A DNA stretch of 64,000 nucleotides from Borrelia turicatae 91E135. Its GTDB lineage: Bacteria > Spirochaetota > Spirochaetia > Borreliales > Borreliaceae. The notes under the pieces are model-generated. The model had not been told where the DNA came from. It saw only the letters and a list, made by a program, of their open reading frames with translations, and did not search any database. Within the stretch, counting starts at the first letter, position 1. Each line of letters starts with the position of its first letter. The stretch is taken from the NCBI RefSeq assembly GCF_000012085.2, contig NC_008710.1, positions 62,001 through 126,000 on the forward strand. Reading direction: 5' to 3'. The translations under genes were made by a program, and so were the position numbers. Positions 1,610 through 10,166 of the stretch are shown here, one piece after another.

Positions 1610-2848
1610 ATGAAAACAGACTTAATAAAATATGCAGAGCTCATTATCTTAAAAGGAATTAACTTACAAAAAAATCAATGCGTACTTATTACAGGATCAA
1701 TTGAAAATTATGAATTTTTAAAAATTCTAGCACAAAAAGCTTATGAGTATGGGGCAAAATACGTAGAATTAAATATTGAAGACACTGACATTTTAAAAAC
1801 CAGATTAAAATCATCACCAGAAGATCTCTTAGAGTTTATTCCAGATTTCAAGCATAAATTTTTTGAAGAAATGATAAATGAAAAATGGGCAAAAATACGA
1901 ATTGATAACACAGAAAATTTAGACACATTGAAAGATAATGATAGTAAAAAAATATCAAAATACTTTAAAGCACTAAATATAGCATCAAGAAAAGTTTCAA
2001 GTGCAATAATGAATAACGAATTAGCATGGTGCATAATTTGTGCTCCAGGTCCAAAATGGGCTGCAAAAGTTTTAAATAAACCTGAGAGTCAAAAAACATT
2101 AGAAGAATTTTTTAAAATTCAAAAAAAAATCATGTTACTTGACTCAAAAGATCCAATAAAAGCTTGGGAAGACCATGGGAAAAAACTTCATCAAAGATGC
2201 AAAATCCTAAATAAACTCAAATTAGAAAAAATAATTTTTAAAAACCAGAAAACAAATCTAGAAATATATCTTCTAGAAAGTTCTATTTGGACAGGTGGAA
2301 GTGAAAAAATAAGAGGAACTAACATTGAATTTAATGCAAACATGCCTACTGAAGAGGTTTATACAACCCCCAATTACAAAAAAACAAATGGAATCATGTA
2401 TGTAACCCGTCCAGTAACGGTACTTGGAAACTTAATAACCGGAATATGGCTAGAATTCAGAGAAGGAAAAGTAATTAACTTTGGATGTGACAATGAACAA
2501 TCAAGAAACATATTAAAAAGACATATGGAAACTGACATGCAAGCACAATATATAGGAGAAGTTGCATTAGTAGACTGTAACTCTCCAATATATCAAAGTG
2601 GTTTAACGTTTTGCAATATACTATACGATGAAAATGCAAGTTGCCACATTGCACTGGGCAATGCATATCCCTCTTGCTTAAGCAACGGACAAGAACTAAA
2701 GACTGATGCTGAAAAATTAGATTATGGCTGTAATGTCTCTTTAATTCATACAGACTTTATGATTGGTAGTAATGACATAAACGTTATTGGCATTGACAAA
2801 TCAAGAAAAGAACATACAATAATACAAAATGGACAATTCGTAATATAA
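1610..2848 (+). CDS. M29-family metallo-aminopeptidase
   Basis: 412 residues, matching the thermophilic aminopeptidase family (AmpS/AmpT/PepS). These cytoplasmic dimeric enzymes use two metal ions to release N-terminal residues from peptides. The five expected ligands fall near the usual positions: Glu in MPTEEVYTTPN (about 249), Glu in GEVALVD (about 316), His in ASCHIALGNAYP (about 346), and His and Asp in LIHTDFMIG (about 377-379). The gene is packed behind the HAD phosphatase and 17 nt before the DUF212 gene. With the M24B enzyme across the divergent promoter, it suggests a small peptide-use cluster, which suits an organism that imports its amino acids as peptides. Exact specificity is unknown. 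Confidence 0.85.
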   Translation: MKTDLIKYAELIILKGINLQKNQCVLITGSIENYEFLKILAQKAYEYGAKYVELNIEDTDILKTRLKSSPEDLLEFIPDFKHKFFEEMINEKWAKIRIDNTENLDTLKDNDSKKISKYFKALNIASRKVSSAIMNNELAWCIICAPGPKWAAKVLNKPESQKTLEEFFKIQKKIMLLDSKDPIKAWEDHGKKLHQRCKILNKLKLEKIIFKNQKTNLEIYLLESSIWTGGSEKIRGTNIEFNANMPTEEVYTTPNYKKTNGIMYVTRPVTVLGNLITGIWLEFREGKVINFGCDNEQSRNILKRHMETDMQAQYIGEVALVDCNSPIYQSGLTFCNILYDENASCHIALGNAYPSCLSNGQELKTDAEKLDYGCNVSLIHTDFMIGSNDINVIGIDKSRKEHTIIQNGQFVI

Positions 2849-2865
2849 AACGGAGTAATCAAATC

Positions 2866-3333
2866 ATGATAAAAGAGTTATTCACAAATGACCTTTTCTT
2901 GTCTTGTTTTGTTTCAGGCATTGTTGCACAAATGATTAAATATATTATTCAAGCAATGAAGACAAAAAAATTCAAAACAAATCCAAAATACCTTTTAAAA
3001 AGCATTTTCTTAGAAACAGGAGGAATGCCCAGCAGTCACTCTTCAACAGTAACAGCTCTTGCCACATCAATATTAATAACAGAAGGAATAGATACTAACT
3101 TTATTATTGCTCTGGCTTTTGCTTTAATAACAATAAGAGATTCATTTGGAGTCAGATACATGGCAGGGGTTCAAGCAGAATATCTAAACGCTTTGTCAGA
3201 ACAACTAAAAATGAAAATCAAAATTGAACCTTTAAAAATCAAAGTGGTTAAGGGACACAAAAAAAAGGAAGTATTTACAGGAATACTTATTGGCATAATT
3301 TCTGCATGGGTAATATGTAACAGAATAATATAA
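2866..3333 (+). CDS. DUF212 membrane protein, divergent PAP2-like
   Basis: 155 residues with hydrophobic segments near 10-27, 70-90 and at the C terminus. The hallmark of the family (B. subtilis YuiD type) is GGMPSSHSSTVTAL at about 52-65, which resembles the phosphate-binding SxxSxH signature of PAP2 phosphatases, plus DSFGVRYMAG near 93-102. A membrane phosphatase role on lipid phosphates is often proposed but I know of no proof. ATG 2866 has a GGAG ribosome site. The gene sits between the aminopeptidase and the lipoprotein gene with short spacers and the same direction. Confidence 0.75.
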   Translation: MIKELFTNDLFLSCFVSGIVAQMIKYIIQAMKTKKFKTNPKYLLKSIFLETGGMPSSHSSTVTALATSILITEGIDTNFIIALAFALITIRDSFGVRYMAGVQAEYLNALSEQLKMKIKIEPLKIKVVKGHKKKEVFTGILIGIISAWVICNRII

Positions 3334-3355
3334 ATAACAGATTATAAAGGAAAAA

Positions 3356-4825
3356 ATGAAACTACCAAAATTTTTAAATATACTGTTAATACTATTACTA
3401 ATTTCTTGCAATATGGCAAAATTTGGAGATTATAAACCAATATATTTCAAAGGAGAAGAAGATTTAAAAACCGCAAATGACTACATAAACTCATTAGGAT
3501 ATAAAACAATATCTGAATACACAACAAAAGTAAATATATTAGACTTCCCCGATTTCAAAGAGATAACAATAAATAAATTAATTCACCTTAATGACTATGA
3601 TCTTCGAAAAGATCTATTTTTAAAAAAATTACCTAACCTCTTCAATATAGAAAAGAAAAAAATACTCTATGTCGAATCAGCATTCACCAGTAGCGATCTT
3701 AGAAAATTAAAGCAAGATCAAAAGATTGAAGCAGAAATGCACTCACTTAACTACAAAACTAAAATTAAATATTTCTCAAGCATAACATTCATAACAATTA
3801 TAATACTTTTATTACTATTAAACATCAAATATGCACCCTTTATAATCCTTTTTCTAATAAGTTCATGTACTATATTCATATTTAGCGATGAAATACTATA
3901 TTTTTATCCTTTAACTATACTCTCTTACCTATTATTTACATTAATTGATAATTTTAATAAAAATTACAATAAAATATACCTAAGGGATATTAGCTTTACA
4001 GTATTAATTAAGAAAATTAAAATTCCAATATTTTTATTTTTATTTATAGTATTTTACTTTATTGTTATCATTAATTTTCTCACAACCAACCTCGAAGCAC
4101 TTCTGATTATTTTTGTATCAATATCAACACTTTGTATTTTTTTAATATTCACTTGGATAAAAACTGAAAGCAACCTCAAACACACATTTTTATCCTTAAT
4201 TGAAATCAAAGAACAAAAACGAGAAACAAAAATCCTAAAATTCAAAATCCTCATACATATAATGTTATTCATAGCATCATTAATGCCATTTTTTTATGCA
4301 CAAAACATACTTAATGCTTATAATAATTTTAATTATCTTTACAGTAAAAAATTGAACTATTTTGACTATTTAAACCCCAACAACATTTACTTAATGGTGG
4401 GACACAATGAAGAAATTCCAAATATTGTGGGTTATATGTATCACATATTTTACCAAAATGAGCTTAAATATAAAATCACATCTCAATATGGCAAAGTAAA
4501 CACACATGTAAAAGAGGACTATTTTGAAATAGAAAACAACAAAATAACTATCAACCAAAAAACTGTATACAAAGTAGACAAAGAATTTATATCCAAAAAC
4601 CTTAATAAAGAACTCCCAAAATTATTCTTAGATAATGGAAATCCAATCTTAATATATAAAGAAACACCCGCTAATATTGCAATCAATAAAGATAATTTTA
4701 CAATTTTGTTCTCTCTCTCATTACCATTTTTCTTATTGCTATTCCTATTTAAAGCAATAAGATTTACAATTCTTTTAAATATGAGTGAAAAAAGCTATAG
4801 AAAATATATTAGAGGAAATATTTGA
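3356..4825 (+). CDS. Putative membrane-anchored lipoprotein upstream of the Rnf-like genes
   Basis: 489 residues, not assigned to a family I know. The N terminus is a hydrophobic signal ending in LLISC (Cys18), a spirochete-style lipobox. Residues 19-135 are polar and probably extracytoplasmic. Several membrane segments follow (about 138-157, 160-177, 180-197, 224-268, 296-316 and 450-472), with a second polar stretch at 320-445. Two regions of transmembrane helices around a soluble domain recall a transporter or redox-complex accessory. Its TGA overlaps the ATG of the RnfC-RnfD-like gene by one base, so the two are translationally coupled and likely work together. I see no RnfG flavin motif (SGAT) here, so equating it with RnfG is not supported. 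Confidence 0.6.
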   Translation: MKLPKFLNILLILLLISCNMAKFGDYKPIYFKGEEDLKTANDYINSLGYKTISEYTTKVNILDFPDFKEITINKLIHLNDYDLRKDLFLKKLPNLFNIEKKKILYVESAFTSSDLRKLKQDQKIEAEMHSLNYKTKIKYFSSITFITIIILLLLLNIKYAPFIILFLISSCTIFIFSDEILYFYPLTILSYLLFTLIDNFNKNYNKIYLRDISFTVLIKKIKIPIFLFLFIVFYFIVIINFLTTNLEALLIIFVSISTLCIFLIFTWIKTESNLKHTFLSLIEIKEQKRETKILKFKILIHIMLFIASLMPFFYAQNILNAYNNFNYLYSKKLNYFDYLNPNNIYLMVGHNEEIPNIVGYMYHIFYQNELKYKITSQYGKVNTHVKEDYFEIENNKITINQKTVYKVDKEFISKNLNKELPKLFLDNGNPILIYKETPANIAINKDNFTILFSLSLPFFLLLFLFKAIRFTILLNMSEKSYRKYIRGNI

Positions 4826-7128
4826 TGTCTAACTCAAAAACGCTAAAAATAAAAAAACAGTATAAAGTAAATATAGATGAAATTCAAATGCCTGAATGTG
4901 TCTTAATTCCACTAGAAACAGAAAATGCAAAATCCACAATATATATCATTGAAAATCAAAGAATCACAGAAGGACAAATATTATCAAAAAATAAAAATGC
5001 AGAGCTATACACATATTCCCCAATATCTGGAACAATAGAAAAAATATATACAGCCAATCTTCCAGGTGAACACCAATTAAAATCAGCATTAATAAGATTT
5101 CACGGAAGAATCAAAAACGAACAAGAACTCTCAGTTGAGGAAGAATCAAGAGAAAAAACACTAGAAAAGTTAATTCGACTAGGAATTCCCTGGTTTAATG
5201 AACATTCACTATTTCAATATGTAAGTAAATGCAAAAAAATAGATAAAATGCTTTTCTTAATAAATGGTAAAGATCCATTCACAAATATCTCAGAAATATT
5301 AATAAAAGAAAAATTAGATGAAATTATTTATGGTTTTGAAACAATCGACAAAATATTTAAATTCAAAGAAATATTAATAGTACTTAGCAACTATCACTTA
5401 AAAAAAGAACTTGAACACTTAAATATCTTTCAAGATAAAAGATTAACGATCAAATTAATTCCCAATACTTCATATCCATATTCAAATCATGAAGTAATCA
5501 TGCACTTTTTATACAATGAAGAGAGCATAAAAAACAATATAAATCCAAATAAAAACATACTTTTAGCTAATGTCGAAGACCTTTATAATGTATATAGTAC
5601 GCTCAAAACAAACTCCCCATATAAAGAAAAGTTTATAACCATAAACGGCAACAAAAAAATACAAAGTAAAATAATCAAAGTAAAAATTGGAACATCTATC
5701 CAACAAATAATAAATGAAGATATTGATACAAAAAAATATGACATATTTATAAACAATCCCGCAAATAAGATAAAAATAAACAATCTAAATATACCTATAA
5801 CAAGGGATATATATAGCATTACAATATTAAAAAAAGAATCAATATTGAGTAAAATAAAACTCTTAAAAACACCTAGTTTTTCACCACGATATATGGAAGA
5901 GATTATTTTATCAAAGATTAAGGGCAAAAATAACATTTCTAATACACAATTACAATATCTGCAATATACTGAAACTGAAACAGAAGATGAAATAAACAAA
6001 GTAAAAAAAGAAATAAAGGAAAAGATTTTAAATCTGAGCCTCAACAATGAACCAATATACACTGAGAACAACTTAAAAGATATCTATTTAACTATTATCT
6101 TAGCCTTAATACCTAGTTTAATATTCTCTTTTACAAACAACATAAAATTTTTAATTGATACTTTAATATTAACAATGATAAGCTTGTGCTCATACATTAC
6201 AATAATGCTAAAATCCAAACATAAATATCTCTCGTTCTTTATATATACTTCATTAATTATCAATATAATCTTACCTTTAAATTTCTCTATAATATTAAAA
6301 ATAATATCATTACTTTTTACATTTTTAGTATTTTTTTATTTCTCAAAGCTTTCCAAATTTCTTGTAAACCCCATATTAATATCGTTTATGTTTTTATTAC
6401 TAAACTTTCCATCAAGTTTTAAGCATACATATTCTAAAAAACTCTCAGAGCAAGAAGATATAATTCCTACCTGGAATAAAATAATGCAGCAAAGTTCAAA
6501 CATTCAAAATTTAGAAAGCCTAAAAGAATTTAAAAGGTATGAAAACAAGCACATTGATATGATTGAAAAATTTATAAATGACAATATATTGTCTAATATA
6601 AATATAATGATACCAAGATTTCACATTGAAAACTTGTTAGGATTACAAAACGAAAAATATCTATCCCCCATTCTGATTTATATTGGTTTCTCATTTATTC
6701 TTGGAAAATTTATCATCAATAAATTAATACCACTATCTTTTTACATAAGTCTACTACTAATTGCTTATATCCTCAAAAATCTTGGTCTTTACAGTCATAT
6801 AAGTTTTGATATGCTAACTCTAATAATGTCACCAATTCCAATGATTTTAGTATTTACAATGAGCACAGAATTGCAAATAGCCCCTCCCTTTAAATTTGAA
6901 CAAATACTTTATGGAATTACATTATCTTTAGTATATTTTATAACATTAAGCTATATTCCACTTGAAACTTTAGCAGCTGTAATATCCATTTTTATCCTAC
7001 AGATAAGTTCAACATTAATAAAAAGATATAGCTTAACATTTCAGATAAAAAAAATATTGCATCATTTAAGCATAAATCAAGCAAAAACAATAAAATATAA
7101 AAATGACAATGGAGAAGAAATTATATAA
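4825..7128 (+). CDS. RnfC-RnfD-like fusion protein without iron-sulfur or flavin motifs
   Basis: 767 residues from ATG 4825, with AGAGGA upstream; a TTG three bases earlier is a weaker start. Residues 24-95 look like the RnfC barrel-sandwich domain (VLIPLE, then SPISGTIEKI). Residues 115-335 follow the RnfC core: an IDKMLFLINGKDPF stretch, LIPNTSYP, an SLBB-like FITINGNKKIQ...VKIGTSIQQII segment and NIPITRDIYSITIL. The glycine loop that binds NADH/FMN is replaced by IPWFNEHSLF (121-130). No cysteine occurs between C136 and C455, so both ferredoxin-type clusters are absent. From 418 onward it is a polytopic membrane domain resembling RnfD (ILPLN...; SKFLVNPILISF; IPLSFYISLL; SPIPMILVF), without the SGAT flavin-attachment motif. 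Homology is inferred from remembered family consensus, not from a search. Confidence 0.65.
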   Translation: MSNSKTLKIKKQYKVNIDEIQMPECVLIPLETENAKSTIYIIENQRITEGQILSKNKNAELYTYSPISGTIEKIYTANLPGEHQLKSALIRFHGRIKNEQELSVEEESREKTLEKLIRLGIPWFNEHSLFQYVSKCKKIDKMLFLINGKDPFTNISEILIKEKLDEIIYGFETIDKIFKFKEILIVLSNYHLKKELEHLNIFQDKRLTIKLIPNTSYPYSNHEVIMHFLYNEESIKNNINPNKNILLANVEDLYNVYSTLKTNSPYKEKFITINGNKKIQSKIIKVKIGTSIQQIINEDIDTKKYDIFINNPANKIKINNLNIPITRDIYSITILKKESILSKIKLLKTPSFSPRYMEEIILSKIKGKNNISNTQLQYLQYTETETEDEINKVKKEIKEKILNLSLNNEPIYTENNLKDIYLTIILALIPSLIFSFTNNIKFLIDTLILTMISLCSYITIMLKSKHKYLSFFIYTSLIINIILPLNFSIILKIISLLFTFLVFFYFSKLSKFLVNPILISFMFLLLNFPSSFKHTYSKKLSEQEDIIPTWNKIMQQSSNIQNLESLKEFKRYENKHIDMIEKFINDNILSNINIMIPRFHIENLLGLQNEKYLSPILIYIGFSFILGKFIINKLIPLSFYISLLLIAYILKNLGLYSHISFDMLTLIMSPIPMILVFTMSTELQIAPPFKFEQILYGITLSLVYFITLSYIPLETLAAVISIFILQISSTLIKRYSLTFQIKKILHHLSINQAKTIKYKNDNGEEII

Positions 7129-7131
7129 ATT

Positions 7132-7701
7132 ATGAAAAATAGTTTAATAATGTATTTACTAGTAAATAATCTATTACTAATACACTTTATCGGAATTGAA
7201 GACATAAAAATCAAAGATAATAAGACATTATCAAAAAAGTATTTGATTGTTATAATAACTTCTTTATTAATTTATTCAAGTCTTTTTTACCTTTATAAAT
7301 TATTCTCAGAACATAACTTATTATTTATAATACCAATTATATATATAACATTGATCTACATACTAACGATAATACTAAAAACATTAAACAATATCTTAAT
7401 TGTTTACAACAACAAATCAAAATATTCTAACGACTTTCTGCTATCCAATAGCAGTTTAATTGCAATAACATTCTTTTCCTTAGATAAAAGTCATAACTTT
7501 TTAGAAGGCATCAAAATACTCATTTTGTCTTCACTCAGCGTCCTAATAGCCCTTATATTAATAACCCTAACAAAGAAAAGTTTTGAAAAAAAATTAACAT
7601 CAAAAATATTAGCCAATGAAACAATATATTTTTTTATAATGTTCATTTTATCTTTAATTCCAAATATAATTATGTTAATAAATAATATCGAGGGTCTATA
7701 A
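7132..7701 (+). CDS. RnfA/RnfE (NqrD/NqrE)-like membrane protein lacking cysteines
   Basis: 189 residues with six predicted membrane helices, the size and topology of RnfA/RnfE. The N terminus YLLVNNLLLIHFIGI matches the family's LVNNFVL..FLGI pattern. The following cysteine-containing CPFLGVS is replaced by EDIKIKD. The second half keeps FLLSNSSLIA where the family has PLITTNCAVLG. The protein has no cysteine at all, so it cannot ligate the [2Fe-2S] cluster that RnfA/E or NqrD/E hold between them. The gene begins four bases after the RnfC-RnfD-like stop, and its own TAA overlaps the prfB ATG (TAATG). A second family member, RnfB and RnfG are not present in the window. Confidence 0.6.
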   Translation: MKNSLIMYLLVNNLLLIHFIGIEDIKIKDNKTLSKKYLIVIITSLLIYSSLFYLYKLFSEHNLLFIIPIIYITLIYILTIILKTLNNILIVYNNKSKYSNDFLLSNSSLIAITFFSLDKSHNFLEGIKILILSSLSVLIALILITLTKKSFEKKLTSKILANETIYFFIMFILSLIPNIIMLINNIEGL

Positions 7702-8778
7702 TGAGAGAAAAAATAAATGAACTTTTGGAACAAATTGAAAATGTCTGGAGGAAGCTTTGACAGCAATAAGATCAAGGTAAAACTTAAAGAATATGAAAAA
7801 CAAATAAATGATGAAAATTTCTGGAATGATAATAAAAAAGCACAAGAGATTCTTAAAAATCAAAATATTTTAAAAGCCAAAATTGAACCTTGGGAAGACT
7901 TGATATGTAAACTCAAAGACTTAAGAGAACTCTGCGAAATTGCAGAAAGCGAAGAAGACACAGCGCTACTCGATCAAGATATTAATAAACTAAGAGAACA
8001 GTATAAGCATCTCCTAACATTATCTTATTTTAAAGAAGATATTGATATAAATAATGCATTCTTGACAATACACTCAGGAGCAGGTGGCACAGAAGCTTGT
8101 GATTGGGTTAGCATGTTATATAGAATATACCTAAGATATTCTGAGAGACATGGATACAAAACAGAACTCATAGACTTACTTGAAGCTGAGGGAGGCATTA
8201 AATCTGTTACAATTGAAATAAAAGGAGAATATGCTTACGGATTTTTAAAAAGTGAAGTAGGAATACATCGTCTTGTAAGAATTTCTCCTTTTGATGCTGC
8301 AAAAAAGAGACACACATCTTTTGCATCTGTTTTCATTGATCCTGTAATTGATGATAAAATTGAAATAACAATTAAACCAGAAGATATTAGAGTTGATACA
8401 TATAGAGCCTCGGGAGCAGGAGGGCAACATGTCAATAAAACATCATCTGCTGTTAGAATTACTCACCTTCAAACGGGCATAGTAACTCAATCTCAAACTG
8501 ATAGAAGCCAACATAGAAATAAAGATCTAGCAATGAGAGTATTAAAATCAAAACTTTATGAACACTACAAAATACTAGAGCAACAAAAAAGTAAATCTAA
8601 ACAAGAGGAAAAAAAAGATATATCTTGGGGCAATCAAATAAGGTCTTACATCTTTCAACCCTATACTTTAGTAAAAGATCACAGAACAAAATTTGAAAAT
8701 CCAAATATCATCTCTGTTATGGATGGAAACATTGATAACTTTATAGAAGAATATCTTAAATGGAAAAATCTAAGTTAA
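7701..8778 (+). CDS. prfB: Peptide chain release factor 2, with programmed +1 frameshift
   Basis: RF2 ends translation at UGA and UAA. The gene is read in two frames. ATG 7701 opens a 19-codon frame ending CTT TGA at 7755-7760; a +1 slip on CTT (7755-7757) continues as GAC from 7759 to TAA 8776-8778, giving about 358 residues. The slip site is preceded by an internal Shine-Dalgarno-like GGAGG (7747-7751), as in the classical autoregulatory prfB frameshift. The product carries the GGQ peptidyl-hydrolysis motif (SGAGGQHVNKTSSAVRITH) and helical domain 1. The start overlaps the TAA of the upstream gene and has a GAGGGT ribosome site. It is not a pseudogene: the site is the expected sensor of RF2 level. 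Confidence 0.9.
7747..7761 (+). other. prfB: prfB programmed frameshift site
   Basis: The site reads GGAGG, AAG, CTT, TGA, C. The SD-like element ends three bases before the slippery CTT, and the UGA is followed by C, the poor termination context found in other bacterial prfB genes. Low RF2 gives a pause at UGA and a shift into the +1 frame. Confidence 0.9.
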
Positions 8779-10166
8779 TCATAATATTATTTTTAATCTT
8801 AACATTAAAACTAGCATATCCTCAAAGTAACATTGAGTATGGCTTTTCTTATATCATCAACACACAAGATGAAAATAAAAATCTTCAAGAAGGCATTGAG
8901 CAAACACTAGATAAAATTTATAAGACAATCAATGAACATATTGTCAATAACAATGATAAAGATTTCATCAGACGCATTTACATAAATCAAAATATAGTAA
9001 ATAAAGAACAAGAGATCAGCAAACTAAAAGAAGATATGGACAAAAAAAAGCTACAGAATGCAATAAGTTCCAGAGAAGAAAATAAAATAGAAATCAAGAT
9101 AAATGAGCTTAAAAAAGACATTGAAAATATTAAAATTAAACAAAAAGAATTTGAAGAGTACCTTATAAATTTAAAAAAAATGAAAACAAAATACATAAAA
9201 CATAAAGAAAAAATACATCCATCAAATTTAAACACAGAATTTTTAATAAGCCAAGAACTATTTTTTATCAATTACATACATCTTAAAAAGATAGAAAAAT
9301 ATTATCTAGTTGAAATTAGCAATATCACTCCTCAAGGAGTCAAGGTTAAAAAAGAAATTTTTCACCTATCATCATCCGTTGATGATATTGCAAACAAAAT
9401 AGCAGAGCTTAGTTTTGAAGAAATATTAGGAAGAGAATTTATTAAGATTAAGATCAATGTCATCAATAATTTAGATGCCAAAATATATATAAATGAACAA
9501 TTTGTATCAAAAGGAATATATAACAATGATATATGGGATATTTCTAAACTCCCTAACAAAGAAATTATCATTAACATCATAAGCACAACTTACAAACCCC
9601 ATACAGTAAAGCAAAAGGTAAAAAGCGGAGATACAATTAACTTAAATATTAACTTACAAAAAGCAAATTATAGAAAAATACCAATTACAAGTAATGTAAC
9701 ATCCAAAGTATTTAAAAAAGGAATATTCATAGGAGAAACTCCAATTGAAATTGAAGAACCTGAGGGCATAGAATCTATTTTATTACAAGCTAAAGGATAC
9801 AAAAACATGTTCAAAATGATAAGCAAAGAAGATAAAGAAATTAATATTGAAATGTTAAAAGACAATAAAAGCGAGCTTATCATCAAAAGAGATCAATTCT
9901 ATATAAACCTCGGAATCTTCACATTAAGCTTAATAGGTACTGCCTTTGCCATAACAAAATATAATGAATCATCAGAACTTTATAATATCGCTTTAAAGAA
10001 TATTATTAAACGTAAAATAACACCTCAAGATCTATACAACGTAAAATCAGAACAAATGATTACAACATTTTTACTTGGTACAGGAATCACACTTTCTGTT
10101 GGCAGTTTTATACCGTTAATAATTCATCTGGTAAAATATATTCAAGAAGCAAGCAGAGGTGAATAA
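8760..10166 (+). CDS. Exported or membrane-anchored PEGA-domain protein with coiled coil
   Basis: 468 residues, function unknown. An N-terminal signal (residues 4-20, ending near AYPQS) is followed by a long charged heptad-like region (about 80-150, rich in K/E/I) that should form a coiled coil. Residues about 230-365 look like two PEGA-type beta domains: the patterns AKIYINEQFVSKG and SKVFKKGIFIGETPIEIEEP, with a KPHTVKQKV strand between. Two hydrophobic segments near 380-400 and 437-458 would place the C terminus in the inner membrane. The start overlaps the end of prfB by 19 bases. PEGA domains often bind surface or S-layer-like structures, but no partner can be named here. Confidence 0.6.
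   Translation: MEKSKLIIILFLILTLKLAYPQSNIEYGFSYIINTQDENKNLQEGIEQTLDKIYKTINEHIVNNNDKDFIRRIYINQNIVNKEQEISKLKEDMDKKKLQNAISSREENKIEIKINELKKDIENIKIKQKEFEEYLINLKKMKTKYIKHKEKIHPSNLNTEFLISQELFFINYIHLKKIEKYYLVEISNITPQGVKVKKEIFHLSSSVDDIANKIAELSFEEILGREFIKIKINVINNLDAKIYINEQFVSKGIYNNDIWDISKLPNKEIIINIISTTYKPHTVKQKVKSGDTINLNINLQKANYRKIPITSNVTSKVFKKGIFIGETPIEIEEPEGIESILLQAKGYKNMFKMISKEDKEINIEMLKDNKSELIIKRDQFYINLGIFTLSLIGTAFAITKYNESSELYNIALKNIIKRKITPQDLYNVKSEQMITTFLLGTGITLSVGSFIPLIIHLVKYIQEASRGE

Follow-up and report, generated by a model that had tools for sequence, protein, structure and literature searches.

A probable redox-dead derivative of the Rnf complex in Borrelia and other spirochaetes

By definition, Rnf and Nqr are pumps driven by redox reactions. 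In Rnf of A. woodii the Na+ path runs through the RnfA/E dimer and not through RnfD, a [2Fe-2S] cluster serves as the gate, and removal of the AE1 cysteines, or of RnfG or RnfD residues at the flavin sites, abolishes electron transfer and growth (PMC11889175). We found no paper that appears to describe a Rnf-derived system of Borrelia in the open-access full-text literature on Borrelia with RnfC, RnfD or Rnf complex. Here we describe a gene cluster of Borrelia turicatae 91E135 that very probably encodes a redox-dead derivative of Rnf. The window is the whole stretch of 64,000 nucleotides that was analysed (NC_008710.1, positions 62,001 to 126,000); the coordinates below are window positions, except for the last gene, which lies outside it.

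2866..3333, + strand: DUF212 (divergent PAP2) gene, first of the spirochaete rnf operon (PF02681, 2.6e-37; synteny)
3356..4825, + strand: gene U, membrane protein of about 490 aa with a signal/lipobox-like N-terminus (hhalign, synteny)
4825..7128, + strand: RnfC-RnfD fusion gene, start TTG 4822 or ATG 4825 (TIGR01945, PF03116, Foldseek; 36/36 Borreliaceae)
4864..5844, + strand: RnfC part of the fusion (barrel-sandwich, core, SLBB-like), aa 15-341, without the FMN/NADH loop and the 4Fe-4S domain
6058..7032, + strand: RnfD membrane part of the fusion, aa 413-737, without the flavin-binding Ser/Thr motif
7132..7701, + strand: RnfA-type six-helix protein, 189 aa, with Glu23 and Ser107 in place of cluster cysteines
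L068:9823-10416 (= G000:C1:621822-622415), - strand: RnfE-type gene, 0.55 Mb away, between mcp and argS

The fusion had been proposed from the sequence alone, and profile and structure searches find both partners in one chain. Family profile searches match aa 15-341 to RnfC (TIGR01945, 1.3e-24) and aa 413-737 to RnfD (PF03116, NQR2_RnfD_RnfE, 1.8e-13). The TIGR01945 score of 86.6 bits is under the NCBI rnfC cut-off of 246 bits, while the Pfam cut-offs for RnfC_N and NQR2_RnfD are passed. Foldseek, given an AlphaFold2 model of the single chain, returned RnfC (8ahx_C, 2e-17) and RnfD (9eri_D, 2.2e-9); the model has a mean pLDDT of 73.6 and a pTM of 0.47, so that the relative placement of the halves is unreliable. 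The open reading frame has 768 codons for amino acids if counted from TTG 4822, and ATG 4825 overlaps the stop of U as TGATG. Numbered from the TTG, its cysteines are 26, 137 and 456. The original prediction was right that none lies between the last two, which it had numbered 136 and 455; C137 is the one invariant isolated cysteine left in the Borrelia fusion.

The RnfA-type gene begins three bases past the fusion stop. As a single sequence its product has no Pfam or NCBIfam match, but its family profile matches A. woodii RnfA (9eri_A, 1.5e-12) and NqrE (1e-8). In hhalign comparisons RnfA (0.0021) rather than RnfE (0.8) is its match, and it aligns at 5e-9 with the RnfA-like proteins of the redox-dead operons described below. 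Together with a residue alignment these results uphold the predicted RnfA/E-like protein, here of RnfA type, with Glu and Ser at the cluster cysteines. Its opening motif reads HFIGIED and not, as predicted, FLGI. A G-x-E-D motif, with Glu at the first cluster-Cys position, is found in 29/30 Borreliaceae RnfA-type proteins. The claim that the protein is free of cysteine holds for the cluster positions but not for the whole family, as 13 of 30 orthologues carry one cysteine, never at a cluster position.

Both reading frames are intact and under purifying selection, and are not decaying. The fusion is present in 36/36 Borreliaceae genomes searched, at 63-98% identity and with no internal stops, and its dN/dS is 0.13-0.19 in nine of ten pairs, the tenth (L011/L014) being near-identical and hence uninformative. 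The RnfA-type gene is free of stops in all 30 Borreliaceae loci read, with dN/dS of 0.09-0.40, mostly 0.1-0.3.

It had been supposed that only C, D and one A/E protein were kept, which is not the case: gene U (3356-4825) also belongs to the system, and none of the Borreliaceae genomes searched is without an RnfE-type gene. When 61 genomes were searched with PF02508, the ordinary RnfA/E genes of other spirochaetes appeared, together with a second Borreliaceae gene, of about 200 aa, which a dedicated profile confirmed in 36/36. In one species its product hits RsxE/RnfE models (9e-9 to 3e-8), its family profile matches RnfE structures at 6e-18, and hhalign pairs it with RnfE (3e-8), not with RnfA. 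Phe and Ile occupy its cluster-Cys positions. The order mcp, RnfE-type gene, argS, all on the same strand, was seen in 30/30 Borreliaceae loci checked. With this gene present throughout the Borreliaceae searched, Borrelia has, as judged by homology, the complete membrane core of A, E and D. Another RnfA/E-like match in Borrelia, near C1:227 kb, was rejected as chance (E about 0.004, most copies with stops inside the match). Elsewhere among spirochaetes, and apart from the operon, an RnfE-type domain is fused to a CheR methyltransferase domain in genome G047 (L076:6194-7612, +; CheR 4.8e-17); in genome G053 the fused CheR-like domain is degenerate (L075:7871-9094, -).

The canonical spirochaete rnf operon has the order U-C-D-G-E-A-B, with U of about 500 aa directly upstream of rnfC (L032-L035, L037, L041, L042, L045, L049-L051). 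A gene of the DUF212 family directly precedes U or rnfC in both kinds of spirochaete operon, canonical and redox-dead (e.g. L032, L037, L051, L122-L126, L131-L134, L137, L138). By hhalign, Borrelia U aligns at 1e-16 with U of canonical operons and at 3e-12 with U of redox-dead operons, against 0.1-0.6 for controls. The order U - C::D - A is kept in 30 Borreliaceae loci wherever both neighbours were recovered in full. Because U is homologous and DUF212 precedes it in both, the Borrelia cluster DUF212-U-C::D-A is evidently the spirochaete rnf operon without G and B, and with E moved. U itself matches no Pfam or NCBIfam family, and its predicted model (pTM 0.65) has no PDB match better than E = 1. 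Its dN/dS is 0.09-0.30. It was found in 92/128 genomes (about 70% of class genomes sampled), once each in nearly all, apparent double copies being mostly pieces of one gene. We class U, by homology and gene order, as an undescribed accessory protein of spirochaete rnf operons. Further along the window, a gene for a PEGA-domain membrane protein (8760-10166) lies between prfB-like and ftsY-like genes.

RnfE-type profile searches left a clear score gap between Borreliaceae, treponemes and a few other families on one side and canonical RnfE on the other. The redox-dead loci so grouped have the order DUF212-U-C-D-G-E-A in L121-L126, L133 and L137, the G position of L126 not being assigned. Reduced operons are DUF212-U-C-D-A in G053 (E elsewhere), DUF212-U-C-D in G047, and DUF212-C-D-E-A in the 1.14-Mb treponeme G108. 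Members include Treponema putidum (G213) and G108 itself, a T. pallidum-like genome (locus L132) whose order RnfD, RnfC, PAP2-like, pseudouridine synthase matches the annotations of TPASS_0151-0154; TPASS_0151 is listed as NQR2/RnfD (PMC4403809). Several loci deserve separate mention. The far end of the L132 operon carries a GH57 gene identified by Pfam (2431-4332, -), and GH57-like ORFs flank the operon by eye in L036, L038 and L043. Family f7 has Rnf-like operons without U (L043:1074-5863, -; L135:3492-7683, -) that carry RnfB with 20-21 Cys and RnfC Fe-S motifs; in L043 the A, E, G and D proteins are cysteine-free, an intermediate type. Near DUF212 in G049, a C-D pair (L136:5778-8038, -) has no RnfC FMN/NADH motifs and keeps a flavin-site-like SATPL in RnfD, a mixed state. 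In treponeme G324 an RnfC-like gene is in two ORFs (L131:6696-7972, -), by sequencing error or as a pseudogene.

Cofactor residues were audited in canonical spirochaete operons, redox-dead operons and Borrelia (3 rows), and counts are given in that order. The RnfC motif GGAxFP is present in 10/10, 0/11 and 0/3, as is ECEPY (10/10, 0/11, 0/3), and the RnfC 4Fe-4S motif in 10/10, 11/11 and 0/3. Counts for the RnfD flavin Ser/Thr motif are 10/10, 1/12 and 0/3, and for the RnfG flavin Thr 9/10 and 0/5, the gene being absent in Borrelia. Both RnfA cysteines are found in 10/10, 0/9 and 0/3, the first RnfE cysteine in 10/10, 3/10 and 0/3, and the second in 10/10, 0/10 and 0/3, so that redox-dead operons keep at most one of the four cluster cysteines of RnfA/E. 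Among 30 Borreliaceae, CxxCxxC occurs in none of the fusions and an SGAT-like motif in none of the RnfD parts. The first RnfA cysteine is replaced by Glu or Asp in 5/5 Treponema rows and by Glu in the Borrelia rows; outside these genera the position is Ser, Tyr or Ala, and Glu is not conserved.

The original prediction that the redox signatures are gone is thereby confirmed for the FMN/NADH, flavin and cluster residues, with no redox site left. Its remark that no RnfB or RnfG lies nearby extends to whole genomes: searches of 36 Borreliaceae returned nothing for FMN_bind (PF04205, RnfG) or ApbE (PF02424), and nothing significant for the RnfB FeS domain (PF04060). The proposed comparison of Treponema and Borrelia operons revealed shared losses in RnfC FMN/NADH, RnfD and RnfA/E, with treponemes keeping the RnfC 4Fe-4S motif. 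The suggested cause, the nearly iron-free life of Borrelia, is for the most part not upheld. The losses in the RnfC FMN/NADH sites, RnfD, RnfG and RnfA/E are shared with treponemes and other spirochaetes, so iron poverty is rejected as sole cause and fits only the last step, the loss of the RnfC 4Fe-4S clusters. By this comparison, only that domain loss, the loss of RnfG, the C-D fusion and the relocation of RnfE are specific to Borrelia, and the loss of the electron path is older than Borrelia, or convergent.

The pattern looks like one vertically inherited Rnf operon that has gone redox-dead in several lineages, which is the origin we favour. Nearly all genomes with U have a single copy of it, and this speaks for one inherited operon in two states. 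It is favoured also by the other Rnf/Nqr systems of the redox-dead genomes read, which are differently arranged and located elsewhere (L046, L127, L130) or were not found. An RnfC tree puts canonical forms on one side (98/99) and redox-dead and Borrelia copies on long branches, and does not nest the latter inside the former; the redox-dead copies may instead descend from an old paralogue.

From subunit homology, synteny, conservation, and the absence of cofactor residues and of RnfB, RnfG and ApbE, the best overall explanation, which we hold with middling confidence, is that a spirochaete Rnf core (C, D, A, an unlinked E, and U) has stayed in its old place, lost its recognisable redox sites and kept a redox-independent task. 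That this task is ion conduction we propose only tentatively, transport being inferred. RnfA and RnfE would still pair as an inverted-topology six-helix dimer beside RnfD, an assembly that is assumed for Borrelia, the RnfE gene being unlinked. The RnfC part would be a cytoplasmic cap, and U would extend into the periplasm. Glu23 of the RnfA-type protein, at the first cluster-Cys position, could bind Na+ or H+ directly through its carboxylate. Na+ or H+ might then move through RnfA/E without electrons, by passive or gradient-driven alternating access or as a leak, perhaps gated by the RnfC part or U. Such electron-free movement is favoured because the Na+ path lies in RnfA/E (PMC11889175) and a carboxylate stands at the cluster position. 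The charged residues of the A. woodii path are only partly kept in Borrelia (RnfE E115 is kept, R67 and RnfA E88 are not), which counts against conduction; RnfA T110/T111 are L/S. With more hesitation still, we suggest that spirochaete Rnf may have a second, electron-independent function that survives alone where the redox pump was lost or replaced, either a cofactor-free ion path or a membrane-energy sensor, with Borrelia as the minimal form. Because of the hint from the RnfE-CheR fusions, the core might also be wired to chemotaxis.

The main alternative, though less likely, is that nothing is transported any longer and that the complex acts as a scaffold or sensor in the membrane. Its conformation would then inform another system, possibly that of chemotaxis, of the state of the membrane or of a redox state (the latter through the RnfC 4Fe-4S domain, if present). 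The fusions of RnfE-type proteins to CheR (G047) and to a degenerate CheR-like domain (G053) are a hint rather than proof, and were found in only two surveyed genomes. In 30/30 loci the Borrelia gene has mcp and argS as its same-strand neighbours, which points the same way, but argS in the same cluster is housekeeping and the mcp link is unspecific, the Borrelia MCP being an ordinary one. A specific shared receptor was considered and rejected: the MCP near the T. denticola-type operon has its best Borrelia match in the MCP beside RnfE, but in the opposite direction about 20 MCPs of T. denticola-type genomes score equally well, so that the pairing is no evidence. NqrA offers a precedent, as a cofactor-free RnfC relative retained structurally (PMC4014512; PMC12174285).

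We consider it improbable that the complex is still a redox enzyme, binding flavin or metal in a non-standard way or using an electron partner encoded elsewhere. All known binding sites along the electron path are lost together, Borrelia has no ApbE for flavin attachment, and in A. woodii neither electron transfer nor growth survives the loss of the AE1 cysteines or the flavin sites (PMC11889175). This has to be set against the RnfC 4Fe-4S domain kept in 11/11 redox-dead operons outside Borrelia, the RnfB gene with 20-21 Cys in L043 and L135, the invariant C137 of the fusion, and the non-canonical RNF postulated for T. pallidum (PMC7512555). Still less probable is that the RnfD and RnfA/E folds are re-used to carry an organic solute, by secondary transport or facilitation: the constant linkage to a PAP2-like gene would suit it, as would the GH57 gene of L132 and the GH57-like ORFs at L036, L038 and L043, but fold and profile searches show no resemblance to a substrate-binding family beyond Rnf/Nqr. 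A functionless remnant being lost is hardly credible, for although the fusion, the gene relocation and the losses of RnfG and the RnfC 4Fe-4S domain resemble erosion, there are no stops in 36 genomes, dN/dS lies at about 0.1-0.2 (fusion, U) or mostly at 0.1-0.3 (RnfA-type gene), and the genes are retained in chromosomes of about 0.9 Mb and in the 1.14-Mb treponeme.

If a redox-independent task is the right reading, a conserved Rnf core without cofactor sites would imply a core job that needs no electrons, and the redox-dead complex would isolate the ion-moving part of the Rnf machine for study. To our knowledge Borrelia has no respiratory chain, and the system bears on how it manages membrane energy without one. 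The genes are not known from animals and occur in 36/36 Borreliaceae genomes searched, so that their essentiality is of interest. The results also bear on whether T. pallidum has an Rnf pump, as proposed.

Three described systems are closest. The flavin-based 'noncanonical RNF' postulated for T. pallidum (PMC7512555) may correspond to the T. pallidum-like locus L132, which is of the same operon type as the Borrelia cluster (DUF212, C, D, E, A); L132 differs in lacking the FMN/NADH, RnfD flavin and RnfA/E cluster residues, with only the RnfC 4Fe-4S motif kept. Na+-NQR (NqrA-F) is similar in that NqrA, too, is related to RnfC and has no redox cofactors, and in that RnfD, E and A have NqrB, D and E as their homologues. 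NQR, however, retains flavins in NqrB/NqrC and NqrF, Borrelia has no NqrC-type FMN_bind protein, and the Borrelia fusion is closer to Rnf (TIGR01945 1e-24 vs nqrA 1e-8). From Rnf proper (RnfABCDGE, ferredoxin:NAD+ oxidoreductase; A. woodii 9eri, C. tetanomorphum 7zc6, A. vinelandii 8ahx) Borrelia differs by the absence of RnfB, RnfG, ApbE and the FMN/NADH, flavin, 2Fe-2S and 4Fe-4S residues, by the fusion of C and D and by the unlinked E; yet C, D, A and E are all recognisable by profile, C and D by fold as well, and the order C-D-...-A is that of canonical spirochaete rnf operons.
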